Assembly (NCBI GenBank): GCA_013298545.1
Contig: JAAFIA010000010.1
Span: forward strand, 1-64,000
Source: Bacteroidota bacterium
Lineage (GTDB): Bacteria > Bacteroidota > Bacteroidia > Palsa-965
DNA: 64,000 nucleotides
Direction: 5' to 3'
The notes under the pieces were generated by a model. The model made no database searches and had not been told where the DNA came from. It saw only the letters and a program-made list of their open reading frames with translations. Position 1 is the stretch's first letter. Each line of letters starts with the position of its first letter. A program made the translations under genes and the position numbers. Positions 1 to 40,961 of the stretch are shown in pieces.

Positions 1-87
1 AACACAAAGAAACCGTACTTCAAACCTCACGAGTATCTGCGGGGGGACGTCCACAAATCGTGCGAAGTTGTAATGAAAATGAGCTAA
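1..87 (+). CDS. C-terminal end of an ORF running in from the left edge (…NTKKPYFKPHEYLRGDVHKSCEVVMKMS*)
   Basis: Open frame from base 1 to TAA at 85-87, convergent with the recombinase; product unknown. Confidence 0.35.
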   Translation, partial: NTKKPYFKPHEYLRGDVHKSCEVVMKMS

Positions 88-117
88 CCGGCCTCAATCG
101 TCAGGCTCATTTTCATT
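72..117. repeat. 13-bp inverted repeat AATGAAAATGAGC / GCTCATTTTCATT
   Basis: Perfect arms at ~72-84 and ~105-117, 20-nt loop, spanning the recombinase 3' end. Confidence 0.8.
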
Positions 118-1712
118 GCAATTTGGCAATAAAAAACAAACCCGCTACCTAATTCCTTGATATACTTAAAACCGTCTGTATTAGGCGTTATTCCTGAGAT
201 TAACGCCACTACGCTATTTACTTTTTCGGTCAGAACTGTATTGTTTTTCTTATCGAAGGTAAAACCATCGGGGAAAAGGAATTTTTGCAACGTATTACGG
301 GCCATAAAATCCCCATTTTGCCACAATAGCGGTAGATTCAGAGCAAGTTCGATGTATTTATTTATCTGTTTTTCGCGGTCAGAAGTTTTTTTGTTGCTTT
401 TGTTCATTTGGTGTTCAATTTGCTCTTTTTCGGCTGAATATTTCCCCCCAAAGGTGGCAAACTGATCCTTTGTGATTTCGCCCAAAACAAACCTTTCTTC
501 AATCAACGAAATTTTGTTTTCTAGTTCTGCTTTTGCTTTGCGAAGCAGGGTAATTTGTTCGCCGTTTGTTTGCGTGAGCTTTTCCACCTTTTCCAAAATC
601 AGGTTTTTTATTATGGCTACGTTTTGGGGGCGCAACTGAAACAGGCTAAGTATTTCTAAAAAGGCAGTATTCACTTTTTTCGCGGAATAGTTGCTTTGGC
701 ATCCCTTCGTATAACATTTGTAATAGTCGATATTCTTACGTTTATCTATGAAGCCTGAAAGCGGCTTACCACAGATTGCACATTTAGCCGTTCCCTTTAG
801 GGCTATTTCTTTGCGCTGCGTATTCCATTTGCGACACTTCAAGGGGATTCTTTTTTTTGCGTTTACGGCTAAAAATAAATCCATCGAAACAAGCGGCTCG
901 TGTTGGGCCTTGAAAATTTCGTTTGGTTGGTGTAAGGAAGAAATATACCCGCAATAGATGGTATTTTTAAATAACCAGTTCAAGGTCGAAACTCCCATGC
1001 GTTTTTTTTCCCATCCGGCAGCCAAAAGCCGTTCCCGTATTTCCGTATCGGTAATTAATTCGCTCGCTTTCCATTGGAAGGCTAATTTAATCAAGGGAGC
1101 ATATTTAGGGCAAGGGATCATTTCCCGTTTAGCTATTCTTTTATAGCCTATGGGTGTTTTCATACACCAGATACCCTCTTTCATTCTAGCTTTTGATCCC
1201 GCTACGATTCTTTCCCGTCTTAACTGGTTATCCTGATGGGCCATTAAAAACATGATATTTTGCATAAACTCCCCGTTATGTGTACGGGAATCGAAATCCT
1301 GCAAGACGGAAATAATAAAAATTCCATGCTCACGTAATTTTGTGGCAATACTTATGGCACTAATACCCGAACGGGAAAACCGTTCGATAGAATAAACGAT
1401 AATGTATGTAGCCTTGTGTTTTTTAGCAAAGGCGATCATTTCCGTAAACTCCTTACGTTCGTCGGTTTTAGCAGATTCAAACGTACCGCCAAAAACTGCA
1501 ATAACGTTCAGTTTTTTTTCGATTCCTTTTTTCTCGCACCCTTCCAACTGTGTAGCAAGCGAAGTATTTGTAATTTGTACGACATCCGATACACGGGTAT
1601 AAATTACTGCTAAATTATTTTCAATCACTTGTACTTTATCTTTTCCTTTTGCGAACTGCAAAAGCAAATTATTCGGGTCTAATTTTTGGATTGAATTATT
1701 GGTGTTTTTCAT
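84..1712 (-). CDS. Large serine recombinase / site-specific integrase
   Basis: N-terminal resolvase domain (AVIYTRVSD...YSIERFSRSG), recombinase domain, zinc-ribbon (CAICGKPLSG...YYKCYTKGC), C-terminal coiled coil. Confidence 0.93.
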   Translation of the reverse strand: MKNTNNSIQKLDPNNLLLQFAKGKDKVQVIENNLAVIYTRVSDVVQITNTSLATQLEGCEKKGIEKKLNVIAVFGGTFESAKTDERKEFTEMIAFAKKHKATYIIVYSIERFSRSGISAISIATKLREHGIFIISVLQDFDSRTHNGEFMQNIMFLMAHQDNQLRRERIVAGSKARMKEGIWCMKTPIGYKRIAKREMIPCPKYAPLIKLAFQWKASELITDTEIRERLLAAGWEKKRMGVSTLNWLFKNTIYCGYISSLHQPNEIFKAQHEPLVSMDLFLAVNAKKRIPLKCRKWNTQRKEIALKGTAKCAICGKPLSGFIDKRKNIDYYKCYTKGCQSNYSAKKVNTAFLEILSLFQLRPQNVAIIKNLILEKVEKLTQTNGEQITLLRKAKAELENKISLIEERFVLGEITKDQFATFGGKYSAEKEQIEHQMNKSNKKTSDREKQINKYIELALNLPLLWQNGDFMARNTLQKFLFPDGFTFDKKNNTVLTEKVNSVVALISGITPNTDGFKYIKELGSGFVFYCQIAMKMSLTIEAG

Positions 1713-1723: not shown

Positions 1724-2155
1724 TTAAATGGTGTTTACTTGACTTGTTGCCCAGTTTGGTTGAAATATATCGGCCACATATAGTATTTTAGTTCCTTTCA
1801 GATTGCACAAATCCCACAAGCGCACAAATCGACGACAATTAAATTTGGGCAAATTGTCGAACGTATAAACAAGAATATAGTTGATATTATTTTGCGCTAT
1901 AAAAAGTAGCATCTTATCAAACTCTTTAAGGTTCTCATCTCTAGTAGTACCGCCAAAATTTGCGGTAATTTTTAAATTATGCCGATCCCCGAATTGGTTA
2001 AACTCCTTTAATTGCGATTCAATACATACTTGCCCAGCCCGTAAATGGTCGCCAGTTTTGATATAAGTAACGGCAAGTTTTTGTTTTGGGGTCTTACAAA
2101 CTTCTACACCTTTTGTAGATTGGAAGTTTTCGGATGTACTTAGGTTGTTTTTCAT
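1724..2155 (-). CDS. Resolvase N-terminal-like protein lacking catalytic residues
   Basis: Aligns by eye with the recombinase N-terminus (FGGTTRDENLKEFDKMLLFIAQNNINYILVYTFDNL), but YTRVSD is YIKTGD and ERFSRSG is DNLPKFN. Confidence 0.75.
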   Translation of the reverse strand: MKNNLSTSENFQSTKGVEVCKTPKQKLAVTYIKTGDHLRAGQVCIESQLKEFNQFGDRHNLKITANFGGTTRDENLKEFDKMLLFIAQNNINYILVYTFDNLPKFNCRRFVRLWDLCNLKGTKILYVADIFQPNWATSQVNTI

Positions 2156-4394: not shown

Positions 4395-5621
4395 TTAGTG
4401 GATTATCTGCCGTGCTTTGTTGGCAGCGTTTGGCGTTAGCTTGCTTCGGATTGCGGCTATTAGCGTGTCAAAATCCTTTTCAAGTTTAGCAATTTCGTTT
4501 AGACTGAGGTAGTAGGCGTTTTCGTATTTCAGTTCTTGCAGATACAAATTAAGCCAGCCTCGTTTTTTTAATTTGTAGAGGATATATATTTCAAAAGCAC
4601 GGGCAAAAATTTCGTTTCGCCGATACCAGTAGTCATTTGCTTTTGCCTTTGCTTTTAATCGAATGTAATAGGTGGACAGTTCGTTACCGGACGAGGACCA
4701 GATAATGCCTTTCAAAATTTTCTCCATCAAACCGCGAAGGTTCTTTTTTGCGATTAAGCTATTATTTACGTTCGTACTGGTTGACCCGCCACCCGTAAGG
4801 GCTTCTTTTCCATTGGACATCGGATCAATATAATATCCGGCAAAATAGTCTAAAGCATGGCCGTACTCGTGTGCAAGAGATCCAACACCACCCGAACGCA
4901 TCAACCGCTCTTCGCGTTTTACTTTACTGGCCTTAATCCTTGCCGCAGATTCACGTTTAAAGCGCGTTAAATTGATAACAAAGGTACTCGGCTCAAAGTG
5001 TGCTAATGCTTTTCCTGATCCACGCGCACCGAATGCCATTGACAAAATTTTATGAAATCCGATTTGTTTGGAAGAAAATCCTAGAATAGTTTGCAAATCA
5101 AAAAAAGCAAGAGCCGCCCCGTTTAGATAATTTAGGCGGTCTAACTGATTCAACCAGTTTCCATACTCAATGCCGGAGATGGCAAAGTAATCTTGAAAAT
5201 ATCGTTCGCTCGATGGATCAAAGTTGGATGGTATTTTTTGCCCCTTTCTTATATCGGTATTTTGATCGTTAAACAAAACTTTCATATCCTTTTTATTCCA
5301 GTATCGGTCAATCATTCCTCGTGGGGCTGTTTTGCCGCGATCCGTTAGTTTACCAAGTTGGTTGTTTGGTAACAAACGTTCTAGGTCTTGATAGGTTTCT
5401 AGTTCCTCGACTTGATTGGAAAACGCTAGATTAATTAGCCCGCCTTGTGGCATGGCGGAAATAGCCAAATTCAGTTTAAAGATCATGTAATCTTTTTTCA
5501 CCTTTTCGGATTCATTTCTTACGGTTGTGTTTTTGATTTTGACAAGCGCGGCGCGAATTTCTCTAACGCCTCTTTTTCCCTCTAGCCTGTAAAATTCTTG
5601 TTTAGCTTGCTCGATGTTCAT
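4395..5621 (-). CDS. LPD1 (large polyvalent protein-associated domain 1)-type zinc metalloprotease-like protein
   Basis: GARGSGKALAHFEPSTFVINLTRFK ... GVGSLAHEYGHALDYFAGYY motifs. Confidence 0.8.
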   Translation of the reverse strand: MNIEQAKQEFYRLEGKRGVREIRAALVKIKNTTVRNESEKVKKDYMIFKLNLAISAMPQGGLINLAFSNQVEELETYQDLERLLPNNQLGKLTDRGKTAPRGMIDRYWNKKDMKVLFNDQNTDIRKGQKIPSNFDPSSERYFQDYFAISGIEYGNWLNQLDRLNYLNGAALAFFDLQTILGFSSKQIGFHKILSMAFGARGSGKALAHFEPSTFVINLTRFKRESAARIKASKVKREERLMRSGGVGSLAHEYGHALDYFAGYYIDPMSNGKEALTGGGSTSTNVNNSLIAKKNLRGLMEKILKGIIWSSSGNELSTYYIRLKAKAKANDYWYRRNEIFARAFEIYILYKLKKRGWLNLYLQELKYENAYYLSLNEIAKLEKDFDTLIAAIRSKLTPNAANKARQIIH

Positions 5622-6337
5622 TTTTTTCGTTTTTTAAAGGTTGACTTTTTACTACTTCTGCTTACTAATTTACTTGCGCCCCACAGGGCTAAAGCTGTTA
5701 GCCCAAGTCCAAGTCCTAGATTTGAGTTTGGCTTTTCTGTTGGGCTTTCTTTTTTTGGGCTTGTTTGTGGTGGCGGTTGGTTTGATGGTGATTTGTTTTC
5801 CTTGCTTACTTGAATGGGTGGGCCACCGCGAATTTTGGAAATGGTCGCCGCGTTTTTTTCAATGCCTATACGGTAGTGTTCGCGGTTATCCCCGTTTGCT
5901 TCGCTGATATAGGGCGAAAGGGAAATACTTTTAGCGTAGGCGTTGACATCATTGGAAAGGGCCGCACTAGATTTGTATTTGCTCGAAATTAACCGTGCAT
6001 GATCGGCAAAGCCATCGGCAGCATTTTTATACTTGCGAAACTTCAGCCCTGAAGATTTAGAGGTATAGGACTGACCGTCCCAAAACGTATTTGGATTTCC
6101 CCCTGCTGTAATGCCGAAAAAATTAAAAATGTTCTTTGCCATGTACGATGTACCCCACCCGCTTTCTAGTGCGGCCTGGGCCATGATTACAAGCGGATTT
6201 AGGCCGAACTGCTTTGCAGCAATTTCGGCCTGTGGATAATAGGTATGTACAAAATTCTGTTGATCGCTTGCGGTGATTCCCGCCAAGCCTATGGCCTCAT
6301 GTGTGCCAAGTAGTGAAACTCGTTGCTCGTCTTCCAT
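5618..6337 (-). CDS. Glucosaminidase (FlgJ-like endo-beta-N-acetylglucosaminidase) with C-terminal TM helix and basic tail
   Basis: FGLNPLVIMAQAALESGWGTSYMAKNIFNFFGITAGGN; C-terminal LGLGLGLTALALWGASKLVSRSSKKSTFKKRKK. Confidence 0.85.
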   Translation of the reverse strand: MEDEQRVSLLGTHEAIGLAGITASDQQNFVHTYYPQAEIAAKQFGLNPLVIMAQAALESGWGTSYMAKNIFNFFGITAGGNPNTFWDGQSYTSKSSGLKFRKYKNAADGFADHARLISSKYKSSAALSNDVNAYAKSISLSPYISEANGDNREHYRIGIEKNAATISKIRGGPPIQVSKENKSPSNQPPPQTSPKKESPTEKPNSNLGLGLGLTALALWGASKLVSRSSKKSTFKKRKK

Positions 6338-6368
6338 CCCCTCAGTTTTTTAGTTGGTGAATTTTAAT

Positions 6369-6761
6369 TCAATTCCATTCCATTGGATAGCCCCATATTG
6401 GCGCGTGTGTTCGTAATTCAAACGCATTAAAATTTGTATGATGCAAAACGATGTTGTAATTATTTAAAAAAGTTACCGCTTCGGTCATGCTATACGGGTC
6501 GAAGGTCAAGCACTTGTATTTATGAACTAAGGCTAAATCAATGCGTTCTTTTGAGGTAATTACATGGGCGATCAACTGCGTAAATCCATCGCGATCATAT
6601 AAACTTTTTGTACTAGTGTCGGTAAACTTGGCCACGATGTCGATAGAATGTAAATCGCAAAACTGTTTGATGGCTTTGTATTGTTCTACAAGTTCTTCGG
6701 CCTTGTTTTCATCATCGACACATAAATAAATTACGGCACGGTACTTCATGTTGATTCTCAT
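6369..6761 (-). CDS. Second resolvase N-terminal-like protein lacking catalytic residues
   Basis: RAVIYLCVDDENKAEELVEQYKAIKQFCDLHSIDIVAKFTDT...DGFTQLIAHV aligns with the recombinase domain, but catalytic Ser and the Arg motif are absent. Confidence 0.65.
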   Translation of the reverse strand: MRINMKYRAVIYLCVDDENKAEELVEQYKAIKQFCDLHSIDIVAKFTDTSTKSLYDRDGFTQLIAHVITSKERIDLALVHKYKCLTFDPYSMTEAVTFLNNYNIVLHHTNFNAFELRTHAPIWGYPMEWN

Positions 6762-6779
6762 AGGGCATAAGTATTAAAA

Positions 6780-7745
6780 TTAGTTTATTGCTAATTGTTC
6801 TTTTAAATGCTTGGGTAAGACTAAAAACACATCTTTGGCCTTGCACCAGTATCTATTTCCATCGGGTGCAAGAAAGCACACAAACAAGCCCTTTAACGTA
6901 TTGACACAACCAAGCGGAAAACCAAGTAGCACCCGATCCCTCATGTGTGTAATGGGTTTTAACTGGTCATCCAAAATATAGGTTGCTTTGCGTGTAGCAA
7001 TTTGCGGCTGCTCTTGCTCAATGCCTGAGAGTTGGGCGTGCATGAATTTTTCGCCCCTTTTTCTACGCACGTCCATTTGTTTTGGGTTGATAAATTCAAC
7101 TTGCGATTTTGCTACCCAAACCTTGCGTTTGTGCTTTTCAAAAACCGTTTCTACTTCAACAAATATTACGTCTTTGCCCACATCCGTTTTAGCATTTCCG
7201 GTGGTCAATCCAATAAGCCGCGAATGTGGAACGGTTTTAATAATATTAGAAATCTCAAACAGACTGGTTTTGTTTGGGGTGCTTCGGATATTGGTTTCAT
7301 TGTTGGTCAAGACCCAATCTAATTTGGGTACACCGTCGCGTTCAACAGCATAGTTTACACTTGAATCTGTTGAAACACGAGCCATAGCATAAAACGCATT
7401 TAATACCGATGGCTGCAATTTTTTCAAATCCTCATTGAGCGAACGGCCATAACGTGCGTTATAGGAATCTACAACAGCTTGAAAATTGGTTATTTCCTTG
7501 CCTATGTTTATCAGAGCTTGTGTATCTGTTGCATCCAGTAAAAACAGACTTTGAAACCCTACACGGTTTAAGGTGTTATAGATTCTAACGGCTTGGCTGT
7601 TAGCCTGATCTTCGGTAAAGGTTTTATCCTCTTTTTGCTGTCTTCCAGTATCTCTTTTTTTGCCAAAGAAACGCCACAAGAAAATACCACCACCAACCAG
7701 TAAACCGTATTTTAATAATTGTCCGATAAGTGCTACCTGTAACAT
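6780..7745 (-). CDS. N-terminally membrane-anchored hypothetical protein with an annexin-like segment
   Basis: TM at residues ~8-25; TDTQALINIGKEITNFQAVVDSYNARYGRSLNEDLKKL. Confidence 0.6.
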   Translation of the reverse strand: MLQVALIGQLLKYGLLVGGGIFLWRFFGKKRDTGRQQKEDKTFTEDQANSQAVRIYNTLNRVGFQSLFLLDATDTQALINIGKEITNFQAVVDSYNARYGRSLNEDLKKLQPSVLNAFYAMARVSTDSSVNYAVERDGVPKLDWVLTNNETNIRSTPNKTSLFEISNIIKTVPHSRLIGLTTGNAKTDVGKDVIFVEVETVFEKHKRKVWVAKSQVEFINPKQMDVRRKRGEKFMHAQLSGIEQEQPQIATRKATYILDDQLKPITHMRDRVLLGFPLGCVNTLKGLFVCFLAPDGNRYWCKAKDVFLVLPKHLKEQLAIN

Positions 7746-7746
7746 T

Positions 7747-7983
7747 TTAAAGTAGGTGTTTGTAAGCCTTTGCTTTCGCTACAAGGCTAGGTTTTTCTTT
7801 TATGATTTGTGCTAGGCTTATCGTATCTGCATTACCAAGCATATTGTAAATGGTTTGTAATGCTTGAGCGATGGCGGCGGCTTCGTTCTCGTCCTTTGCC
7901 TGTACGCCGGAGATTTCTAAATTGAAGTCCATATTTTTTAGTTTTTGTCTGTTTTCAAATCGTTTGTTTTGGCTTTTTTGCAC
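7747..7983 (-). CDS. Small hypothetical protein
   Basis: 78-aa ORF in a tightly packed operon. Confidence 0.5.
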   Translation of the reverse strand: MQKSQNKRFENRQKLKNMDFNLEISGVQAKDENEAAAIAQALQTIYNMLGNADTISLAQIIKEKPSLVAKAKAYKHLL

Positions 7984-7998
7984 ACATCACATTTACAG

Positions 7999-9345
7999 TC
8001 ATCCGTCGGCCTCAAAATCGGTATCATCTTCAAAAGGGTTTTCTGCCGTTTCTTGTTCAGGGTTGTCTGTTAGTTCCTGTTCAATATCGTCTGTTTCTTG
8101 AGTTTCGGGGTCTTGTGGTGCATCGTATTCAGGTGGGTAATTTTCCGAATTGGTTTGTACAGGTTGGGGGGCTTGCGTTTTGGGGGCTTGCGCCTGTGGG
8201 GTGGGGTTTGCTTGTTTTACCGTTTGGGCGGTTTTTTGTTGCGCTTGATTCGTAACTGGTGCGTTTTGTTGTACCACTTTCAAAACGGGTTTATTAGTCG
8301 GTGCGCCGCTCACGTTTTGCGCCGGTGTGTTTTTTTCAACATAGTTAAAAATCGCTGCCGCTCCTTTTGGGTTTGTTTGCAAAAAGTAAAGCAGTCCATG
8401 TATCTGTAAATAGTTTTGGAAAGGCAAAGACTTTAACGAGGCACAGACCTGATCTGCCGCCTCAAACTGTTTACGCTGCTCCTCACTCGTGTATGTGGGT
8501 TTAGGCGTAGAACTTCCAACCTTTACACTTGCGTTTGCTTTTTGCTCTACGGGTTGGTTTTGTTCGTCTGTTGGCGTTGGTACGTTGATAATACCCGCTA
8601 ACTGCTCATCATTCAAATTAAACGCGGCTTTTAGCAGTTTGGGATTACGTTTGACGAATGATTCCAACCAGTACGATCCCACTTCTACCAAATTCACCCC
8701 GCCAACACTTCCAAACTGCGGTCGTTGTTTGATTTCCTTTTCGAGTTTTTCAATATACTCGTCCCTATCGCTGATTTCTTCTTTTAGGTTTTTAATTTCT
8801 TTGTCTTTATCCTCTAGCCGAATTTCTTTAATAGCAATATCCATACGGGCGGCGTATTGCTGTGTAAGTAGATCAATGTGCTGCTTGTTTTTCGCTTCGG
8901 TCAGTTTCAATAGTTCTTCGCTATTGCTCGTGTTATTGAAGGGAAGTTGAAAAGGCTTTTGTAAATAGTGTTGTTCAGGCCCTGCAAAATAATTTCCGCT
9001 CATGGGTTGGGAGTTTTCAAATACTCCTGCAAATCCTTGTACTTGGGTTTGGCTAAAGGCATCTTCGCCAAGTTCAATATAAAAATTGGCCTCTGAATCT
9101 TTTACCTTACGCGAATAGCCGCGATATACTTCAATGGTCAATGCCTGTGGACGGTGTGTACGAATAACGTGTGTAATGTCGTTTTGAAAACTAGAAACGC
9201 CCATCTTACGCGAAATCACACAAACAGAGTTTCCATGTTTTTCGAGTGAAACGGAATAGTAAGAAGGCAAGCCCCTTGCCTCACGTTCGCGCATCAATTG
9301 CGCGATGTCGTCCAATTGTTTAACGGCGGCTTGTTGCTGATTCAT
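7999..9345 (-). CDS. Coiled-coil hypothetical protein with Q/P-rich and acidic C-terminus
   Basis: KDKEIKNLKEEISDRDEYIEKLEKEIKQ coiled coil; acidic tail; operon position. Confidence 0.65.
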   Translation of the reverse strand: MNQQQAAVKQLDDIAQLMREREARGLPSYYSVSLEKHGNSVCVISRKMGVSSFQNDITHVIRTHRPQALTIEVYRGYSRKVKDSEANFYIELGEDAFSQTQVQGFAGVFENSQPMSGNYFAGPEQHYLQKPFQLPFNNTSNSEELLKLTEAKNKQHIDLLTQQYAARMDIAIKEIRLEDKDKEIKNLKEEISDRDEYIEKLEKEIKQRPQFGSVGGVNLVEVGSYWLESFVKRNPKLLKAAFNLNDEQLAGIINVPTPTDEQNQPVEQKANASVKVGSSTPKPTYTSEEQRKQFEAADQVCASLKSLPFQNYLQIHGLLYFLQTNPKGAAAIFNYVEKNTPAQNVSGAPTNKPVLKVVQQNAPVTNQAQQKTAQTVKQANPTPQAQAPKTQAPQPVQTNSENYPPEYDAPQDPETQETDDIEQELTDNPEQETAENPFEDDTDFEADG

Positions 9346-9682
9346 GGCAAAGTATTGTTTTTGTTGTGCTTTGAATATGTATCCGTACTAAACGGATCAG
9401 TTGGGGTGTATCAAATCCTGTTGCAGTCCGGTAAGAGATTAGCCCTGAAAATTCAGGTGTTGGATTTTCCGCTTGGCCGCGATCTGAGCCGATATAAAAA
9501 CTGGTATCGCTTTCAATTTCGATGCTTGAAGGATTCCCCACCAAATACACAAAACCATTATCCACACGAAAACTTTTTGCAGTCGGTTCTACATACAAAC
9601 TCATCGGCTCGTAATAAAAACTCAAAACGCCCATCTGCTGCATTCGCTTGTTTAAAAATTCGATCCAAAAATTTTCGTTCAT
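9320..9682 (-). CDS. Small beta-rich hypothetical protein (candidate structural protein)
   Basis: 120-aa ORF, beta-strand-rich pattern; start codon preceded by an octamer array. Confidence 0.6.
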   Translation of the reverse strand: MNENFWIEFLNKRMQQMGVLSFYYEPMSLYVEPTAKSFRVDNGFVYLVGNPSSIEIESDTSFYIGSDRGQAENPTPEFSGLISYRTATGFDTPQLIRLVRIHIQSTTKTILCHESATSRR

Positions 9683-9689
9683 ACTTTTT

Positions 9690-9846
9690 TGAATTAGTGA
9701 ATTAGTGAATTGGTGAATTGGTGAATTGGTGAATTGGTGAATTATTGAGTTGGTGAGTTGGTGAATTGGTAAATTTTTTAATTGGTAAATTTTTTTAATT
9801 CGCTAATTCACCAACTTTCTAATTCACTAATTTTCTAATTCGCCAA
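9690..9846. repeat. Inverted array of 8-bp units (GAATTRGT then ACYAATTC), array A
   Basis: gaattagtgaattagtgaattggtgaattggt... followed by ...aattcaccaactttctaattcactaatt. Confidence 0.9.
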
Positions 9847-10210
9847 CTTTTAAAACTCGTAGGTATATTTTTACTTTGTGTGTGATGGATGCAAAGCCGC
9901 TTTTGTCTTGATAATAGCCGCTCAGTAAACAGGCAGGGGTTGTATGTTCGTCCAGCTTTATGTAACTAATTTTTTTCTTTGGTAGCCCGCTAAAGGCCCG
10001 AGCTTGAAAACGTGTTAAGGGTGCGCTCGTACCTTCTGAAAACTTTACGCATAATTCACCGCGTAAAGGGGCTATTTGTGCAATGGAAATATAAATCCCA
10101 ATCACACGGCAAACCTCTAAGGGTAAGCGAAATTCAAAGGCTTTAAAGCCATTGCGGACGGCCTCGATTTCATAAATTAAATAGCCTTGTGTTTGCTTGC
10201 AGGTTTTCAT
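9827..10210 (-). CDS. Small beta-rich hypothetical protein, similar in pattern to the product of 10210..10569
   Basis: ORF overlaps its neighbour by 1 nt; shared pattern L-x-R-hh-G-hhI ... YLR(L/V) at the C-terminus. Confidence 0.6.
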   Translation of the reverse strand: MKTCKQTQGYLIYEIEAVRNGFKAFEFRLPLEVCRVIGIYISIAQIAPLRGELCVKFSEGTSAPLTRFQARAFSGLPKKKISYIKLDEHTTPACLLSGYYQDKSGFASITHKVKIYLRVLKVGELEN

Positions 10211-10569
10211 TATGCGGATAGTCTTAAATAAATTACTGCGGTATAGGGGTAACTAACTGCTAGTCCTGAATCACGGTAAAGCGTTTTAAATTTCAATCCT
10301 GCCGCTTGGTTATCCAGTTCGTAATACAATTCGTCAACTGGTACGCCCAAATCAGCAGTTAGCATCCGAACCTCATACCCATCAGGGAAAATTTCGGTAC
10401 TGCCGATTGTAACCTTTGAAAGTGTCGAGTTTGCAGCCTCTTTGACTACGTTAATAAAAACACCTGTCAAACGTGCAAAAAGTTTATCCGTTTCAACTTC
10501 AATTTGTACTTGCTCGTTTGCAAATTGAATCGTTACCGGAACGGGTTGATATTTGATATTACCGACCAT
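10210..10569 (-). CDS. Small beta-rich hypothetical protein (candidate structural protein)
   Basis: 119-aa ORF; by-eye paralogue of 9827..10210; preceded by array B. Confidence 0.6.
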   Translation of the reverse strand: MVGNIKYQPVPVTIQFANEQVQIEVETDKLFARLTGVFINVVKEAANSTLSKVTIGSTEIFPDGYEVRMLTADLGVPVDELYYELDNQAAGLKFKTLYRDSGLAVSYPYTAVIYLRLSA

Positions 10570-10585
10570 TGTTTTTGATTTTTAG

Positions 10586-10748
10586 AATTGATAAATTTTT
10601 GAATTGGTGAATTGGTGAATGAATTAGTGAATTTTTGAATTAGTGAATTACTGAGTTAGTGAATTGATAAATTTTTAATTCACCAACTTGCCAATTCACT
10701 AATTCGCCAATTTTCCAATTCGCCAACTTTCCAATTCACCAATTTTCA
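10586..10748. repeat. Octamer inverted array B
   Basis: gaattggtgaattggtgaatgaattagtgaa ... aattcaccaacttgccaattcactaattcgccaatt. Confidence 0.9.
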
Positions 10749-10874
10749 TTTCGCTCTGTTTCTCTTTCTGTTTCTTCGCTCTAAAAGGTGGGGGCGGGCG
10801 GCGCAAAAACTACGCTGATCCACATCTCAAATCCATATCCACCGACTTCCGCCCCCGTTTCCCTTTGTCCTTGT

Positions 10875-11585
10875 TTAGAATGGAATTACGGATGTTCCGA
10901 TAAACGTAACACGCATCCAACAAACCGTCGCAGCAGCAGCCGTCGCAAATTTGAACGGCATTTTAATCTCTACTTGCGGTTCAATTACTTTTGCATTTTC
11001 CAACTTGAAACTGCAAACCTCTACGTCTTGACGGTCGCGGGTATTGAAAATTTCCGCGTCGATTTGCGGCAAAATTTTCTTGCCCCCCGCTTCGAGTTCA
11101 AAATCACCGTTGCGGATAAAGGGCGGGATTAAATAAAAATCTGCCGCTTCTTTTGTTGGGCTTACGGCATAGGCCGTTTTCAATCCTGCAAGCAAAAACC
11201 AGTTATCCTTTTCCAGTTTTGAATTGGCAATACTCGCCAACCCCGTCGCTTTCTGATCAGTACCGATAAACATATCAATACTCGATTTGCTTGTTACTTC
11301 TTTCACCACATAAAAGCGTTGATCGACTAACTGCAAACGTTTTTTTAATAGTCCCATCCGCACATCTTCGGGCAATTGCCCAAAACGCATTTCCATTTCA
11401 TAACGGCTTCCGCGTTGCAGGGTGATCGTTTGACCTTGCAAGAGTTTTTTAGCGGCCTTGTACCGCTTGGCAGGGGGCAATTTTTTAATTGCGCCCAAAA
11501 GTGAATTAAACGTGTCTGTTTCGATACCGAACAATTCTCCAACGTTTCCAAACTCACCGTCCAACAACATTTCTACTTCATTCAT
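10875..11585 (-). CDS. Hypothetical protein (candidate major structural protein)
   Basis: 236-aa ORF in the structural-type operon; preceded by array C; no recognised family. Confidence 0.6.
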   Translation of the reverse strand: MNEVEMLLDGEFGNVGELFGIETDTFNSLLGAIKKLPPAKRYKAAKKLLQGQTITLQRGSRYEMEMRFGQLPEDVRMGLLKKRLQLVDQRFYVVKEVTSKSSIDMFIGTDQKATGLASIANSKLEKDNWFLLAGLKTAYAVSPTKEAADFYLIPPFIRNGDFELEAGGKKILPQIDAEIFNTRDRQDVEVCSFKLENAKVIEPQVEIKMPFKFATAAAATVCWMRVTFIGTSVIPF

Positions 11586-11619
11586 CGTTTTCGGTTTTTT
11601 TAAATTTGTTTAATTTTTT

Positions 11620-11770
11620 GAATTGGCGAATTTTTGAATTTTTGAGTTAGTGAATTTTAGAATTGGTGATTTAGTGATTGGGTGAATTGGTGATTTTTAA
11701 TTCACCAACTGTCCAATTCACTAATTTTTTAATTCACCAATTCACTAATTTTCCAATTCACCAATTCGTT
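11620..11770. repeat. Octamer inverted array C
   Basis: gaattggcgaatttttgaatt...ttcaccaactgtccaattcactaattttttaattcaccaattc. Confidence 0.88.
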
Positions 11771-11771
11771 C

Positions 11772-12299
11772 CTAGATAATGTCAGCCGTCGATTCTTCTT
11801 CTACTTCGTTCCCTGCGAAGGAATTTTCCGAATAAGCATAGTTAGCTGAATTTGATCCTTGCGGGTCTTGCAGGTTTACATCAACTGCGGGGGCGGCATC
11901 AATACTGTAATGCGCCTGTCCGTTTTGGATGCCTACCAGTCCCAAGTCGATTACTTCCAAATTATTGGTTTGGGTTGAACCAAGACCGGAAAAAAACTGG
12001 TCAACTGCCGGAATCAATCGTGCGCCGGACATAAAACCCGATGCAGCAACGCCATAGCCGACCATTTTGATTTTTGGATTATCGTTCAGCGAAGAAATCA
12101 CCACGCCCGCCGCCACTTGTACGGCTGCTTTAATCGGGCCGATATACTGCTTTGCTGTTGGCAGGTAGTTATCTACTGCCTTTTCAATCAAACGATCCAA
12201 AAGCGATGCACCAAGCAACCCACCTGCTACACAAGCCGAGTTTACAAACTCGTCCTTCATCCTCACGAGCGTTAAACGCTCTTTCCAATTTGCTTTCAT
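11772..12299 (-). CDS. Hydrophobic/membrane hypothetical protein
   Basis: Several hydrophobic Gly/Ala-rich segments (ACVAGGLLGASLL, AAVQVAAGVVISSL, GYGVAASGFMSGARL). Confidence 0.6.
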   Translation of the reverse strand: MKANWKERLTLVRMKDEFVNSACVAGGLLGASLLDRLIEKAVDNYLPTAKQYIGPIKAAVQVAAGVVISSLNDNPKIKMVGYGVAASGFMSGARLIPAVDQFFSGLGSTQTNNLEVIDLGLVGIQNGQAHYSIDAAPAVDVNLQDPQGSNSANYAYSENSFAGNEVEEESTADII

Positions 12300-12376
12300 T
12301 GCTTGTTTTTGTTTTTAACTGCTTCCGCTTATCTTTTGCACGGGTGCGGAAATTAACCCTGCTTTTTTTATCCCGC

Positions 12377-14398
12377 CTAGAGATAAAGTGTTTTCGTTTT
12401 GCCGTTTTTAGTTTTTGGTTTGGATTTGCTTTTCGGTGTGTGGTTTTTTTTACGCGGTTTGGCAGACCCCGTTTTTGTTCCCACCAGTCGAAAAGGTTCT
12501 GGTTTTATTTTTTTTGTTTTGACAACCTTACGCGGTTTAGGCGTGGGCTTTTTTGTTTGTTTGGGTTTGGGCTTTGCAGTAGGTTTCTTTTTTGCGCTTG
12601 GTGCTGTTTTTGTTTTTCGCGTTGTACTTGCGCTCTGTTTCTGTTTCTTGTTTCTGTTTCTTTTAATCGTACCCAATCCCGAAATCCCTGATAGTTTTTC
12701 TTTGCCGCTACTCATCAAAAGCAAACCGCCACTTACAAGAAGAGCCGCCGGAACTGCCCACGCGGGTAAGCCTGTTTCTTCGTTTGGCGGTGGTGGTGGT
12801 GGATTTTCACCCGCCCCCTGTCCATCGTTTATAAGTTTTTCGTTTTGCTTTGGTGTTTTTTCGTTTTGATCGCTTGCGCCCGATTTTTTCAAAAGTCGTG
12901 AAGGATTTACCTTACTGAGTAATTTTTTTACGTTGACTTTCGAGGCAAAGGCTTTTAGTTTGGCTAAAAAGGGAACACTCGCCGCCGTTGTCGTGGCTGC
13001 GCTCACGGGTTCAACCACACCAAAAGAAATACCATTTAAGCCACCCGCTCGACCGCTTAAAATCGTATGCCGGAACGTTTCAGGGCTTCCCTGCAAGACA
13101 CGCACAAAAATGTGTTCTGCTTCGCTTAATGCGTGTTTGGCTTTGGTATATTCTTCCGTATCGAAACCCTGACTGGCGGCCTGATCGGGCGACAAATAAC
13201 CCCATTTCAACGTTTCTGCAATCTGAAACAGGTTTGTTTTCATGGCAAGCAAAACACCCGCACGGGCGGCAACCGTTAAAGGATTATACTTTACTAAGGC
13301 TTGCCCTGCATCCTTCACGTTCTCTTTTTGATTTTGAACGGCTTCTTTTACACGATCAAAAAATTTACGCTGCCATGCCACACGACCCAAGCCAACAACA
13401 ACGCCCGATAAGTCGGTTTGATAATCCAAGATTATCGTTTCTTCTGAGCCGCTACCAAGTAATCCGTTTATGCGTGTTTCTTGTTCGCTCAGTCGGCGTA
13501 AGGCTTCGTCCCGTTGTGGGGTATGCCAATGCTTTAAGGCGTAGTCGATTAGTTTAAGAAAGGTTTCAGGGTGTTCAACTTCGCGGATCAGTTCGGGATT
13601 GCTTTGTACCAGTTCCCGCGTTTTTACTAAATGGTTGTAAATGGCATCCGGTGTGTCCGTGCTGCCAATCCCCGCAAAATCCGACCCGCTCACTAAATCA
13701 AGGAGCGGCGAAGATTCGCCAACACCTGAAAGTATGGCTATATCAATACCCGATAAATTTGTTTTGCTTGCCATGTTTCTATTTTTTTCTTGTGTATAAA
13801 ATGTTCTTTGGTAGTTCTTATCTTGTTTTACTGAAATCGGAAAATCTCGAATTTCAGCAGGTGGTTTTTCGCTATCGAAATAATCTAACACACAGTCCAG
13901 AATTATATCGCGTTCTCCATCGTGCGCGATAACGTAGATATGTTGAAAGTGTTCTACGCCCTCATACCGTGCAATGCGTAAACGATGGGGGATGCCAAGC
14001 ACAGACAAGCAGCAGGAAAGAGTAATAGAAAAATCGTCGCAATCAATTCCGTAACCTGCTAAATTTCCTTCCCAATAGCTGCGGGCAGGTGTGCGTAACT
14101 GCTCACGTCCTTTTATATCTTCTAAATAATTGCAACGCGAATACCAAAAGTTCCAAAGGTTGCGGCACGTTTGATAAATTGTTTTTGCTCGCTGTGTGGG
14201 TGCAAATTGATTGACTTGATACTGATAGGTTTTTATTACGCCAAATATTTTCTCAATCACTATATCCAAATCCCCATTGGGACGGATAATTGTTTCCTTC
14301 CAATCGCATGGCTCAAATAAGCGATCATAGCGTGTACTTTTTATTACGCGCTTTTCGGTGGTGGACACCAAACCCAAATTTCCCAACTTCACTTCCAT
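12377..14398 (-). CDS. Transglutaminase-like protein with TM helix and long Lys/Pro-rich tail
   Basis: GIDCDDFSITLSCCLSVLGIPHRLRIAR...HFQHIYVIAHDGERDIILDCVLD; AVPAALLVSGGLLLMSS; basic tail KKKPTAKPKPKQTKKPTPKPRK. Confidence 0.8.
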   Translation of the reverse strand: MEVKLGNLGLVSTTEKRVIKSTRYDRLFEPCDWKETIIRPNGDLDIVIEKIFGVIKTYQYQVNQFAPTQRAKTIYQTCRNLWNFWYSRCNYLEDIKGREQLRTPARSYWEGNLAGYGIDCDDFSITLSCCLSVLGIPHRLRIARYEGVEHFQHIYVIAHDGERDIILDCVLDYFDSEKPPAEIRDFPISVKQDKNYQRTFYTQEKNRNMASKTNLSGIDIAILSGVGESSPLLDLVSGSDFAGIGSTDTPDAIYNHLVKTRELVQSNPELIREVEHPETFLKLIDYALKHWHTPQRDEALRRLSEQETRINGLLGSGSEETIILDYQTDLSGVVVGLGRVAWQRKFFDRVKEAVQNQKENVKDAGQALVKYNPLTVAARAGVLLAMKTNLFQIAETLKWGYLSPDQAASQGFDTEEYTKAKHALSEAEHIFVRVLQGSPETFRHTILSGRAGGLNGISFGVVEPVSAATTTAASVPFLAKLKAFASKVNVKKLLSKVNPSRLLKKSGASDQNEKTPKQNEKLINDGQGAGENPPPPPPNEETGLPAWAVPAALLVSGGLLLMSSGKEKLSGISGLGTIKRNRNKKQKQSASTTRKTKTAPSAKKKPTAKPKPKQTKKPTPKPRKVVKTKKIKPEPFRLVGTKTGSAKPRKKNHTPKSKSKPKTKNGKTKTLYL

Positions 14399-14409
14399 CG
14401 CTTTTTTTA

Positions 14410-14632
14410 TTTGGTGATTTTTTGAGTTAGTGAATTGGCGATTTTTTCAATTCACCAATTCACCAACTGCCCAACTTCACGGTTCAACTTCACTAGTCAA
14501 CTCCACTTTCCAACTTCACGGTTCAACTTCACTAGTCAACTCCACTTTCCAACTTCACTTTTTTAATTCACTAATTCAAAAATTCACTAACTCACCAATT
14601 CGTCAATTCACCAACTCGCCAATTTCCTAAAT
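14410..14632. repeat. Octamer inverted array D with an embedded 39-bp direct repeat
   Basis: Octamers at both ends; ccaacttcacggttcaacttcactagtcaactccacttt at ~14471 and ~14510. Confidence 0.88.
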
Positions 14633-15058
14633 CGTGAAAATCTTTTCTGCTTTATATGGAATACCATCAGCCTGAGTAAACACTTCCAGTTTTAGTGTCC
14701 GGTTTGCTTTTTGTCCTTTTAAGAGCAGGGGAGCAAGCGCGGGTATATTTGTTAAAGGAATAAACAGGTTTACTTTCAACTTTGTACGCGCCCTTTTTTT
14801 TATCGCGTGTGTTTCTTCGCTTGGTTCGCTGTTGCCTACCTCGCTATCCATCAAATACACTTTTAAAAGGGGCTGAGTTATGGTAAACGCATGACCCGAA
14901 AAATTATCTATCGTGATTTCAGCCCACATTTTTAAACTCGCTTGCTCTATGCCCACAATGGCAACCTGCGTAACGTTTATACTTAATTTTTGGGCGGCAT
15001 TTGCTAATGAATAAAGCCATGCCGCACCACCCCCGATCAATGCTAATGAAAAAATCAT
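14627..15058 (-). CDS. Membrane-anchored LEA14-like hypothetical protein
   Basis: N-terminal TM (FSLALIGGGAAWLYSLA) followed by a beta-rich domain with INVTQVAIVGIEQASLKMWAEITIDNFSGHAFTI. Confidence 0.5.
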   Translation of the reverse strand: MIFSLALIGGGAAWLYSLANAAQKLSINVTQVAIVGIEQASLKMWAEITIDNFSGHAFTITQPLLKVYLMDSEVGNSEPSEETHAIKKRARTKLKVNLFIPLTNIPALAPLLLKGQKANRTLKLEVFTQADGIPYKAEKIFTI

Positions 15059-15300
15059 TTTTTAATCTCCTTCCCGCATTCCTCACACGTTGCCTTGTTT
15101 TTGGTTTCTCGTACTTCGCGCTGCTTGGCATTGTATCTGTCAATGAGCATACGAATACCAAACCACACAAAACCGCCAATAATGGAACGTATCGTAAAAT
15201 CTAACATCCCGCCGCTCTCCATGCCTGCCAAAAAAATAGAACTACTTAACAAAATGTCGTCCGTCGTTCCGCTCGTTGCTATGCTTCCCATGTTTTTCAT
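15055..15300 (-). CDS. Small membrane protein with C-terminal CxxC
   Basis: TM segment IRSIIGGFVWFGIRMLI; CEECGKEIKK end. Confidence 0.5.
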   Translation of the reverse strand: MKNMGSIATSGTTDDILLSSSIFLAGMESGGMLDFTIRSIIGGFVWFGIRMLIDRYNAKQREVRETKNKATCEECGKEIKK

Positions 15301-15489
15301 TTGACTTAGTTTTTTGTTTAGTCAAAGGTCTTACATCGAAAAATTACGCGGGATAAATTGGAACAACTTAGGACAACTTTTGCAACTTCGTTTTTTGTAA
15401 GTGGTTGAAAAAGTATTTAAACTGGTCATTTTTCACACTCCATTTTTTTCGGTTCAAACATAAAAAATATCTTTTGCTCACGATTTGGC

Positions 15490-15519
15490 ACAAAAAAACC
15501 GGACTTCTTTTGTCCGGTT
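15490..15519 (-). terminator. Intrinsic terminator
   Basis: AACCGGAC/GTCCGGTT stem with T-run on the minus strand. Confidence 0.85.
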
Positions 15520-15543
15520 ATCCTTGCTTGTTTTAGTGTGCAA

Positions 15544-15942
15544 TTACTTCTTTTTCTTTTTACGTTTTTCTGCTTTAGAAAAGGAATCTTGACCCCATTC
15601 CTCGTCGTTGTCTAGCTGATTATCTTTTGTTGCATTTGCAAAGTCTTCCATTTCCTTTTTCTTATTACTCATGTACATACTTTGCAATTCGTCCTCCGTG
15701 TAATTCTCCAGTACCATAAATTCAGGTAAGCCTTGATGACTTATAAAGCGTCGAACATTGTCGATGCTCAAATAATGCGAATGCCTAGCATTGAAAAAAA
15801 TACCCGCATTATGCAACCATTTTTCTATCGTTTTGCGACCAACTTGGTACATACGCTGCAAATCCGCTTTTTTCATAGGCCGGATTCTAAACACAGTTAT
15901 GCGCCGACGGTTGTAGCTGTCTTCGTCATGGAGCGAATACAT
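15544..15942 (-). CDS. Small HTH DNA-binding protein
   Basis: MKKADLQRMYQVGRKTIEKWLHNAGIF HTH pattern; basic C-terminus. Confidence 0.6.
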   Translation of the reverse strand: MYSLHDEDSYNRRRITVFRIRPMKKADLQRMYQVGRKTIEKWLHNAGIFFNARHSHYLSIDNVRRFISHQGLPEFMVLENYTEDELQSMYMSNKKKEMEDFANATKDNQLDNDEEWGQDSFSKAEKRKKKKK

Positions 15943-16223
15943 AAAAGTTATTTTTTGGAGTTTTTGAAACGGATGTTTTAGGTGTCCTCCGTTTTCTAGG
16001 GTTATGCCTTTGAGTAGTTACAATACACGTTCTTTGTTTTTCGTTTGTGCTAATTTTCTCTTGTTCGCCAGTTGTTTCGTTTTGATGGATGTGTAGCCCA
16101 GTTCTACGATTAATTTTGCATCCTCTTGGTATGCAATTAGTATAACGCGGCTAACGTGTTAAGGTTGCTTCTATTGTACAAATGGGGGGGATTATTTCAC
16201 AAGTGTTTGATTTTTTTAACGAA

Positions 16224-16640
16224 TTACAATTTTTTACTATGTACTTCGTTTTGCGAAATTTTATTTTTGGTATTCGTTTCTGCCATACCCGAAATGCAAT
16301 CCAGTTGTATCTGTTCTGTTTTCTCTGTTATCGCAAATTCAGCTCGTATATGCTTTTTTTCTCCCGCGTGTATTGTTTCACCTGTTAATGCTCCATCATG
16401 TGCCAATGTGTCCCCATCTTTTCCCATGCAATAAACTTCTATCAACAGGTTTTTGTAATGCGTGTTTGGGGCTTTATTCGTTATCGAAAATTCTGCTTCG
16501 CATAAGGAATCGTTTAGTTTCTTAAACGATAAAATTTTGCCTTCTAAATAATAACGGGATCGTGTTTCGGGATGGATGGTTTTATTGGTGTTATAACACG
16601 AAACAATAAACGCAATACCCAAAACTAAAAACGTTCTCAT
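16224..16640 (-). CDS. Putative lipoprotein
   Basis: Signal peptide plus lipobox-like FIVSC. Confidence 0.6.
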   Translation of the reverse strand: MRTFLVLGIAFIVSCYNTNKTIHPETRSRYYLEGKILSFKKLNDSLCEAEFSITNKAPNTHYKNLLIEVYCMGKDGDTLAHDGALTGETIHAGEKKHIRAEFAITEKTEQIQLDCISGMAETNTKNKISQNEVHSKKL

Positions 16641-16825
16641 GCGGTTTCGTTTGTAGCATCGTCTATAAAATCATCCGAAAAGTCTTGACACAATTTAATA
16701 AGTCTTATCGCATACTCTTTTTCACTTTCCGAAAGTTCGTTTAGATTTTTCGCCGCTAAAACTTCGTAGCAGTCTTGCAAATCGTTAAAGGTGTTTTCAA
16801 ACCTGCAATGATCCATGTTTGCCAT
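16637..16825 (-). CDS. Small hypothetical protein
   Basis: 62-aa ORF overlapping the lipoprotein start (translational coupling). Confidence 0.5.
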   Translation of the reverse strand: MANMDHCRFENTFNDLQDCYEVLAAKNLNELSESEKEYAIRLIKLCQDFSDDFIDDATNETA

Positions 16826-26906: not shown

Positions 26907-29225
26907 TTATCGAACAAGGTTGACATGTCCGATGTAGTCGTATTCTTGGCCGTTACGATCAACAATATGTACTTTGTAAACATAGGTATCGGTTTGGCAT
27001 AGCTTGCTTGATCCTTGTACTTTTCCGTCCCATCCGGTGTATTTGTCGTTGGAGGTAAAAATAAGATTTCCCCAACGATCAAAGACATACATCTCGAAGG
27101 TATTGATGTCGGCCACATCGCTAAACGATGGCATGAATTCGTCGTTAAGTCCATTCCCATTTGGCGTAAATGTATTTGGGATGTAGATGAGAATTTCAGG
27201 ACTAATCACCAAACATTCGATGGCGGTATCGGGGCACGTATTGTTTGGTCCGAAGACAACAAGGCGGACGCAAAATGTGCCTGTGTCTTCGTAAGTAAAT
27301 GTTGGACTTTGCAGATTAGACGACGCTGCATTTGATCCAAAATCCCATTCCCAAACACTTGGACTTCCGGTCGATTGATCGGTGAAGGTGATGGTGGGGT
27401 TGTTGATGGTAGCGGGTTGCGGGGTGAGTGTGAAGGCGGCTTGTGGGCCGGGCTGCACAGAAATCATGTTTACAATGGAATCGGTAAACGTACATCCTTC
27501 GGCAGAGGTTGCTGAGAGTGTTACGGTATAAAGTCCATCAACAGGGTAGCAGTAATTGGGATTTTGAACATTGGAGGTTGAGCCATCGCCAAAATTCCAA
27601 GCCCATTGGATAACATTGCTATTGGTAACGGTTGTGAGGTCGGTAAAATCGACGCAGAGTGGTGCGCAGCCAGATGTTGGTGTTGCAGAAAAATTGATAT
27701 CAGGAAGTGGATAAACAAGCACCGTGAAATTGACCGTATCCGAACATCCCAGCGAATCGGTAACGGTTAGATTAACGGTGTACGTTCCTGACGTGTTGTA
27801 AACATAATTTGGATTTTGGAGGTTGGAGGTATCGCTTCCATTGGCAATTGCGGGGTCGTTGAAATCCCAATGCCAAACATTGATTGGCCCGTTTCCTGCG
27901 GGTGCGCTGGAGTTGTTGCTGTTGAAGGGCATTTGTGCGTTGGGGCAAACGCTGGTACTGGTGAAGAGTGCGGTAGGGCCGGGAATGACGTTGACCACAA
28001 CGTTGCCAGAAGTGGTTTGCGCGGGATTGCCGTTGTCTGTTCCCGAAATGATAAGTGTGTTGTAGCCGATGTTGGAATTTAAACCGACAAATCCACCGAT
28101 GAGATTGGCTGTATTTCCGGGCGCATTGGAAATGTTGAAATAGCCTGTGCCACTTGGTGTAACGGTAATGGTTGTAATCTGTGCAGGTTCGGGTGAGAAG
28201 AATGTCGCCGTAATGGGAAGTGTATCGCCTACGCAAAGGGTGAGTGTGTCGCAAACTTGTCCGGCATTCATGATGGGCGGAATATTGTTTCCGTTACCCG
28301 TATTGCAAACGTCAAAAAAGAATTGCTGGTTGTCGAGCCAACTCACACCGCTAGGTGCGCCGAGTGGGCCATTGTAAGTAACGCCGGGTTGATCGAATGT
28401 TCCGATTTGGATGTAGTTGACACCATCGCCGAGGTTTGCACCAACGGTTGCAGCTGTGCCTCCAAAGCCATTGTTTCCGCCAGAAGCATCGCCAGTTGTC
28501 CATTCCATATCGCCATAGCAGAAAGAAACATTGCTACCAACTGGAAGGATTGGATCAACACCGTCTGAAATAATCAATTGGAAATCGTTGAGTTTGTCGG
28601 CATGTTGCGAGAAATAACCAACCGTTTGCCAACGCACAATCAGGTGTGTGGGTGTTACTTTGTAATAGACAACGCCACTGATCGGGTTTTGTGTATCCAC
28701 ATCGGCCCAGAAAGGCGCAATCATGGTAACTTGATTCGTTGGGAAACCTGTTGCCGAAAAAGTGCCATAAGGTGTTCCGAACGAAATATTGCCGTTGTTG
28801 TTGATGTATAAATCGTTGAACGTTTGTCCGTAAAAACAAAAATTAAATGGAATTGGAATGAGTGGTGATGATGCGTCGTCGTTGCGATATTGTGGCGGAT
28901 TTCCCCAAGTAAAAGGAACAACTTGATATGTGTTATCGAGTTGAAACATGCAATTGCAGTTCGCCGCTTGTGTCGATGGTGGTGGTTGATTGATGAGCGA
29001 CAAGAGGGGTTGTTGAATGCGGGCATTGTCGCTTGCCATCACATAAAGACCATTGTTGAGTTGCCCACTTCGCTTCATATCGTCCCATTTTTCGGGGGCA
29101 ATAGCAGTAGGGACTTGCGCATGGAGTGGCAGGCCAAAAATTAGCAACAACAGGAGGAGTCTGAGGTCTTTCAAAATAAAATATGTTAGTTGGTTTAAAC
29201 AAAAGTTGAGTTTGCCGTTCAACAA
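26907..29225 (-). CDS. Nidogen-like/multi-PKD secreted protein with gliding-motility C-terminal domain (paralogue of 25143..26849)
   Basis: APFWADVDTQNPISGVVYYKV; WAWNFGDGSTSNVQNPNYCY; IPNTFTPNGNGLNDEFMPS...FDRWGNLIF. Confidence 0.87.
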   Translation of the reverse strand: MLNGKLNFCLNQLTYFILKDLRLLLLLLIFGLPLHAQVPTAIAPEKWDDMKRSGQLNNGLYVMASDNARIQQPLLSLINQPPPSTQAANCNCMFQLDNTYQVVPFTWGNPPQYRNDDASSPLIPIPFNFCFYGQTFNDLYINNNGNISFGTPYGTFSATGFPTNQVTMIAPFWADVDTQNPISGVVYYKVTPTHLIVRWQTVGYFSQHADKLNDFQLIISDGVDPILPVGSNVSFCYGDMEWTTGDASGGNNGFGGTAATVGANLGDGVNYIQIGTFDQPGVTYNGPLGAPSGVSWLDNQQFFFDVCNTGNGNNIPPIMNAGQVCDTLTLCVGDTLPITATFFSPEPAQITTITVTPSGTGYFNISNAPGNTANLIGGFVGLNSNIGYNTLIISGTDNGNPAQTTSGNVVVNVIPGPTALFTSTSVCPNAQMPFNSNNSSAPAGNGPINVWHWDFNDPAIANGSDTSNLQNPNYVYNTSGTYTVNLTVTDSLGCSDTVNFTVLVYPLPDINFSATPTSGCAPLCVDFTDLTTVTNSNVIQWAWNFGDGSTSNVQNPNYCYPVDGLYTVTLSATSAEGCTFTDSIVNMISVQPGPQAAFTLTPQPATINNPTITFTDQSTGSPSVWEWDFGSNAASSNLQSPTFTYEDTGTFCVRLVVFGPNNTCPDTAIECLVISPEILIYIPNTFTPNGNGLNDEFMPSFSDVADINTFEMYVFDRWGNLIFTSNDKYTGWDGKVQGSSKLCQTDTYVYKVHIVDRNGQEYDYIGHVNLVR

Positions 29226-29268
29226 TGTTTACTCAATACATAGCTATCAAAAATAAGAAAAATACCTG

Positions 29269-30663: not shown

Positions 30664-30753
30664 GTGTGTAAAATGCCTAGTGCAACAAACAGCTTAATCA
30701 TACGTGTTCCAAAATATTAGCTGTGCATCACGTTAGCCTAATTGAGGAGAAAT

Positions 30754-30791
30754 AAAAATCGGCTGACTTCGTAAGAAATCAGCCGATTTTT
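30754..30791. terminator. Bidirectional intrinsic terminator between convergent genes
   Basis: AAAAATCGGCTGA...TCAGCCGATTTTT. Confidence 0.88.
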
Positions 30792-30817
30792 TTGGGGATG
30801 TTCAGACTAAAAAAAAT

Positions 30818-34474: not shown

Positions 34475-34566
34475 TTTTACAGAGAACCAAATTTTTTTCA
34501 GAAAAAATATGGAATTGTGTTTTTTTTGGCCCGTATCTGGTTTCGATGTTAAAACATCAATAATAG

Positions 34567-34602: not shown

Positions 34603-34618
34603 CGGAATAAATCGAAAT

Positions 34619-40938: not shown

Positions 40939-40961
40939 GTAATCGAAAAATAAGCGTTTTT

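Follow-up and report, generated by a model that had tools for sequence, protein, structure and literature searches.

The first ~16 kb of a 64,000-nucleotide stretch of Bacteroidota DNA (the window: positions 1–64000 of contig C2 in genome G000, which comprises 4.53 Mb in 154 contigs) are very probably an integrated provirus, the compact form of a lineage of tailless, membrane-containing Bacteroidota viruses related to Salisaeta icosahedral phage 1 (SSIP-1). SSIP-1 has an icosahedral, tailless, membrane-containing virion with two types of capsid protein (PMC6356626, PMC5332951), and is the only isolated relative of this widespread and apparently undescribed lineage; a limited literature search found no paper on these proviruses, and an earlier description is possible. 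The tailless membrane-virus reading is supported by the predicted jelly-roll fold of a 236-amino-acid (aa) protein and by the homology to SSIP-1 proteins of a transglutaminase (TGase)-like protein, a 175-aa hydrophobic protein and, in full-size relatives, an ATPase. An initial annotation, made from the sequence of the window, had delimited the element at 4395–16825; it runs instead from a serine recombinase (position 84) to ~16 kb. The open reading frames (ORFs) named in that annotation all lie where it had placed them and have the features it described: a glucosaminidase with a transmembrane segment, a TGase-like protein with a transmembrane segment and a basic tail, further transmembrane proteins, the 175-aa and 236-aa proteins, three proteins of ~120 aa and a serine integrase. 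Among the genes of the element Pfam recognised only the serine recombinase parts, a MerR regulator, an LPD1 protein and the glucosaminidase, and PHROGs and NCBIfam added nothing for the structural genes.

A predicted jelly-roll capsid protein

Although the initial annotation had reported no recognised capsid gene, the 236-aa protein is a predicted jelly-roll protein of the capsid type, merely unrecognisable by sequence; no PDB sequence matches it. The annotation had proposed AlphaFold and Foldseek as a check for such a fold at 10875..11585. Modelling of the window protein, run with 47 natural homologues, yielded a single jelly roll preceded by a helical N-terminus (pLDDT 79.8, pTM 0.72), for which Foldseek retrieved mainly capsid proteins from the PDB: those of PBCV-1, SGIV and EhV, the FLiP penton, SPV1 VP4 and circovirus capsids. 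The PBCV-1 capsid and the FLiP penton ranked at the top, and SPV1 VP4 had a TM-score of 0.45. Matches in BFVD comprised capsid proteins and many unnamed entries; one of them, I1ZBH9 (211 aa), is presumably SSIP-1 gp46, judging by length and accession order. We consequently regard the 236-aa protein (family F3) as the putative major capsid protein. For the 119-aa protein (family F2) at 10210..10569, to which the same check had been proposed to apply, AlphaFold predicts an eight-strand beta sandwich (pLDDT 78, pTM 0.71); its Foldseek matches were unspecific, with E-values of at least 0.007.

Homology to SSIP-1 virion proteins

The profile of the TGase family (F0) matched the SSIP-1 structural protein gp34 with E=3e-16, the generic transglutaminase model of Pfam giving gp34 just 9e-7. 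Among SSIP-1 and Rhodothermia-type proteins, gp34 and its homologues were the only clear matches of F0, and the catalytic triad Cys120/His153/Asp168 is invariant, gp34 included. The ATPase family of the full-size relatives (F18) matched gp40 (E=6e-20), which is a structural protein of SSIP-1 and its predicted packaging ATPase (PMC4124505). We considered and rejected mere generic P-loop similarity, as the match is specific when set against other ATPases in the loci; hankyphage-type ATPases match F18 weakly.

Profile–profile comparison extended the relationship to the 175-aa protein (family F26), which aligned with gp44 at E=9e-4 in hhalign, the best of 12, with a score of 29.2 against at most 18.3 in 150 column shuffles; its top outside matches were Rhodothermia-type gp44 homologues. 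The capsid family F3 aligned with gp45 over the full length at E=0.013, again ranking first among 12 profiles and outscoring every one of 150 column shuffles. An hmmsearch of F3 against gp45 did no better than shuffles, and single-sequence hhalign of F3 against the SSIP-1 proteins gave nothing useful. The gp44 and gp45 profiles were built with proviruses close to SSIP-1 (L211–L216; other families of the phylum), which occur in 16 of 398 phylum genomes outside the window's class and whose host group we infer to be Rhodothermia. These proviruses carry homologues of gp33, gp34, gp40, gp43–gp45, gp47 and gp54. They bridge SSIP-1 and the present lineage through gp34, gp40, gp43, gp44 and gp45, and differ from the latter in that gp45/gp47/gp54-type genes replace its F3/F2/F9/F6/F5/F1 set.

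SSIP-1 itself shares with the lineage a TGase-like virion protein, a membrane-type structural protein (gp44) encoded directly upstream of the capsid genes and a large helicase/methylase protein, and with the full-size relatives also the RecA-like ATPase gp40; gp45 is a probable jelly-roll capsid relative. SSIP-1 differs in its 43.8 kb genome, which encodes, among other things, a primase and an RNA polymerase sigma factor, and its gp47 and gp48 have no detectable counterpart in this lineage, whereas the window element has ~16 kb and neither ATPase nor helicase.

The tailless, membrane-containing character proposed in the initial annotation is supported by the predicted jelly roll and the SSIP-1 homologies; its likening to FLiP or tectiviruses is not, since the analysis turned up neither a Rep nor a PolB nor a double jelly roll. 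The Finnlakeviridae (FLiP, phiCjT23) are likewise membrane-containing Bacteroidota phages with no packaging ATPase, and the FLiP penton is among the Foldseek matches, but their capsid protein is a double jelly roll of ~310 aa as opposed to a predicted single one of 236 aa, and no rolling-circle Rep occurs among the scanned window genes. Of the Tectiviridae features, protein-primed PolB and an FtsK/A32-type ATPase, neither was found in the window element. Sphaerolipoviridae-type viruses (P23-77, SH1, HCIV-1) have a single-jelly-roll capsid and an internal membrane, a structural analogy only; they use an FtsK/HerA-type packaging ATPase, which was not found in this lineage. The sphaerolipovirus-like guess nevertheless came nearest of the three, because the literature places SSIP-1 and the sphaerolipoviruses together on account of their two capsid proteins of the single-barrel type (PMC5332951, PMC6356626). 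Charybdis elements (PMC12324425) were set aside as 4.6 kb elements of an archaeal host with a different fold.

Conservation and genomic settings of the module

Fourteen window genes were matched by profiles of families built without the window (E-values from 1e-103 to 4e-7). Across loci the genes keep a constant order, F15-F4-F0(TGase)-F10/F26-F3(236 aa)-F2-F9-F6-F5-F7-F1-lysis genes, and the median ratio of non-synonymous to synonymous substitution rates (dN/dS) in relatives is 0.04–0.09, indicating strong purifying selection. Given these profile matches, a gene order shared by dozens of genomes and the low dN/dS, the window ORFs are true genes and not chance reading frames. Homologues of the 236-aa protein were found in further genomes, and a profile made from them located the capsid gene in 42 of 395 genomes of the class (~10.6%), with up to five copies per genome; it was absent from six other genomes of the window's genus. 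A DNA pattern retrieved 107 stretches in named genomes, ~90 of which hold the module, all Bacteroidota according to record titles.

Full-size relatives, of ~23–24 kb, have the recombinase in the same position, beside a tRNA gene, and carry lysis genes, a RecA-like ATPase, a Strawberry-notch helicase, a Dam methylase, amidase, peptidoglycan-binding and endolysin-like genes, and holin-like and spanin-like transmembrane proteins. The DNA shared by two copies in one genome begins, recombinase first, at the 3' ends of their respective tRNA-Ser genes, which differ, and reaches an XRE gene after ~23–24 kb; recombinases of elements in other hosts are found next to tRNA-Arg and tRNA-Met. At three loci the recombinase ORF runs antisense into the adjoining tRNA gene (L075:12362-14263, L079:13928-15607, L089:12293-14161), so its C-terminus may change upon integration. 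The opposite end of the full-size elements holds interchangeable defence genes (L057:16404-18676, L058:16801-18720, L080:1368-5365, L052:16286-18867), the cargo beyond the XRE gene comprising a CBASS-type cyclase with TIR, type III and type I restriction-modification components, and Gabija GajA and GajB.

The module is also found on plasmid pPP10 of Persicobacter psychrovividus (53 kb, with Rep and ParAB; L071/L072), possibly a phage-plasmid form, and on pPP1, a 1.07-Mb replicon (L020). Cyclobacteriaceae chromosomes hold several copies (L096, L101, L127 and L138 on JAIBBC010000001.1; L178, L180 and L140). The related loci L016 and L017 show neither recombinase nor regulators, and some copies are fragmented; these broken or reduced forms suggest decay or domestication.

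Compact elements and co-resident relatives

The window element belongs to a compact subtype, with further members in genomes G491 and G619 (contig C41), whose members have F26, F22 and the LPD1 metallopeptidase family F25 in common and lack helicase and ATPase. A Walker A scan found no motif in the window element proteins; for the complete element of G491 it gave two hits, which fall in the F1 and TGase proteins and which we presume to be false. From its failure to see an A32/FtsK-type ATPase the initial annotation had suggested a satellite; the absence holds for the compact subtype, while full-size relatives do have an ATPase, RecA-like rather than A32/FtsK-like. F25 occurs together with the module in three of the 395 class genomes (G000, G491 and G619), and all three contain another capsid-gene copy. 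The chance of this co-residence is ~0.001 under independence, and genomes rich in mobile elements would produce it too.

A satellite lifestyle of the compact element is plausible. It would supply its own capsid and lysis genes and rely on a full-size relative in the same genome for the packaging ATPase, and possibly also for replication or delivery proteins, a dependence that we put forward tentatively. It would fit the fact that neither the window element nor the complete G491 element has a P-loop ATPase, the larger relative or second capsid gene in three of three compact-subtype genomes, compared with ~10.6% of class genomes carrying any copy, and the partner on contig C121 of the window's own genome, which has helicase-type and RecA-like ATPase genes. 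The cases, however, number only three, the same co-occurrence is expected where mobile elements abound, and the end of the G491 partner was not reached. Nor is a missing ATPase proof of dependence, since DNA encapsidation that needs no self-encoded ATPase has been proposed for FLiP and Odin-group viruses (PMC5894146). The more elaborate scheme of a two-tier tailless system, in which full-size SSIP-1-related proviruses coexist with compact 16-kb satellites that encode jelly-roll capsid, membrane and lysis proteins themselves and borrow the co-resident relative's packaging ATPase, is somewhat unlikely. A further F18-related ATPase gene lies on another contig of the window's genome (L226, G000:C154, 3894-5738).

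Alternative readings of the region

Lysis genes of the types seen here are frequent in tailed phages, which might suggest the remnant of an ordinary tailed prophage. Terminase, portal, HK97 capsid and tail were not found in the module families or window genes with Pfam, PHROGs or NCBIfam, and the conserved structural module is of a different kind, leaving this reading a next to negligible probability. The initial annotation had recognised no portal, terminase, tail, conjugation or Rep protein, and family scans found none either. An integrative conjugative element, or another non-viral island with a secretion apparatus, could draw on the fact that LPD1 polyvalent proteins and large serine recombinases are known from conjugative elements too (PMC5512222); we consider it very unlikely, given that no relaxase, coupling protein or type IV secretion system family appeared in any gene examined and that the predicted jelly-roll capsid fold and the homology to SSIP-1 virion proteins speak against it. 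Domestication has its best case in the Cyclobacteriaceae-type loci, where structural and lysis genes, frequently multi-copy and under purifying selection, are embedded among ordinary chromosomal genes with no recombinase, regulators or ATPase, as if a former provirus had been kept by its host as a gene-transfer or cargo-release particle. The window element, however, retains recombinase and regulators, distribution within one genus is patchy, and full-size elements carry a tRNA-linked recombinase, DNA methylase and defence cargo, like mobile elements; we judge a domesticated capsid operon improbable.

Several observations weigh against an integrated SSIP-1-related provirus. The TM-scores of the 236-aa model to solved capsids are modest (0.2–0.45), its Foldseek matches include non-capsid proteins, chiefly furin, and the F3–gp45 match is not significant alone. 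Apart from the distant proteins of SSIP-1, 50,697 phage records contained no match to the capsid or TGase protein, and neither virions nor excision products nor induced DNA are known for the lineage. The recombinase (84..1712) sits at the edge of a contig that begins at window base 1, so the left boundary of the element is unseen, and attachment repeats sought around tRNA genes were not found. A search for an empty integration site in genomes of the same genus failed, as these contain no match to the flank.

Should the provirus reading hold, the recombinase would insert and excise the element DNA (at a tRNA gene in relatives), and upon induction the operon would direct the assembly of a shell from the 236-aa protein, to which the ~120-aa proteins contribute minor components, around a membrane vesicle holding the 175-aa, LEA-like and other transmembrane proteins. 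The membrane-anchored TGase- or cysteine-protease-like protein may serve maturation or cross-linking, and the glucosaminidase may open the cell wall at exit or entry. In the larger relatives, DNA would be packaged by the RecA-like ATPase and the helicase/methylase 'polyvalent' protein probably delivered; the compact form, from which the ATPase is absent, would have to do without one or borrow it.

An earlier account calls SSIP-1 an orphan with a genome hardly similar to any other (PMC6356626). Its relatives, as we read them, are proviruses in about one-tenth of the sampled genomes of a major bacterial class, unnoticed by Pfam, PHROGs and NCBIfam. If so, tailless membrane viruses would be a common, overlooked component of Bacteroidota biology, an ancient capsid lineage would gain many members with cultured hosts (Chitinophaga, Puia, Ohtaekwangia), and the existence of satellites of tailless viruses would become testable.

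Gene content of the window element

Table 1. Genes of the window element, all on the minus strand (HTH, helix-turn-helix).
Feature	Coordinates	Strand	Basis
Large serine recombinase (integrase), 542 aa; last gene of element	84..1712	-	PF00239 4e-24, PF07508 6e-9
Recombinase N-terminal-domain-like ORF, no catalytic C-terminal part	1724..2155	-	PF00239 weak, E=0.006; BLAST match to 542-aa recombinase
MerR-type HTH regulator, 306 aa	2718..3638	-	PF13411 1e-6
LPD1 polyvalent-type protein, conserved HEYGHALDYF zinc-peptidase motif	4395..5621	-	PF18796 2e-11; family F25 E=1e-103; motif from alignment
Glucosaminidase (peptidoglycan hydrolase), C-terminal transmembrane segment; putative lysis or entry enzyme	5618..6337	-	PF01832 1e-20; family F22 1e-60
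Second recombinase N-terminal-domain-like ORF, 130 aa	6369..6761	-	PF00239 5e-5
Transmembrane-anchored protein, family F1; putative membrane or virion component	6780..7745	-	E=4e-22 to family built without window
Small conserved 60-aa protein, family F7; longer start at 7983 possible	7747..7932	-	E=1e-11
Coiled-coil protein, family F5	7999..9345	-	E=2e-24
120-aa protein, family F6; putative minor capsid protein	9320..9682	-	E=4e-11; conserved operon place; predicted beta-rich in initial annotation
127-aa protein, family F9/F56; putative minor capsid protein	9827..10210	-	E=4e-7; predicted beta-rich in initial annotation
119-aa protein, family F2; putative minor or second capsid protein	10210..10569	-	AlphaFold eight-strand beta sandwich; family E=4e-24
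236-aa protein, family F3; putative major capsid protein	10875..11585	-	Predicted single jelly roll; Foldseek capsid matches; weak SSIP-1 gp45 profile match
Hydrophobic 175-aa membrane protein, family F26; homologue of SSIP-1 gp44	11772..12299	-	hhalign F26-gp44 E=9e-4
TGase-like protein, family F0, transmembrane segment and basic tail; homologue of SSIP-1 virion protein gp34	12377..14398	-	F0 profile vs gp34 E=3e-16
Transmembrane segment and LEA2-like beta domain, family F4	14627..15058	-	E=2e-20; LEA_2 6e-4 in one relative
Small transmembrane protein, family F15	15055..15300	-	E=7e-11
HTH regulator, family F11; upstream end of conserved module	15544..15942	-	E=5e-10; place conserved in relatives

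The two short recombinase-like ORFs (Table 1) consist of the N-terminal domain alone, and one of them sits within the structural operon. Four operon spacers (9683-9826, 10570-10744, 11586-11771 and 14399-14626) contain 8-bp periodic arrays (GTGAATTG / TCACCAAT) with long inverted arms, and comparable arrays occur at dozens of further sites in the window's genome. Elsewhere in the window, at 26907-43439, lie large, repeat-rich genes that resemble those of surface proteins (772, 1218, 2050 and 825 aa); their products are similar to one another in the C-terminal region.

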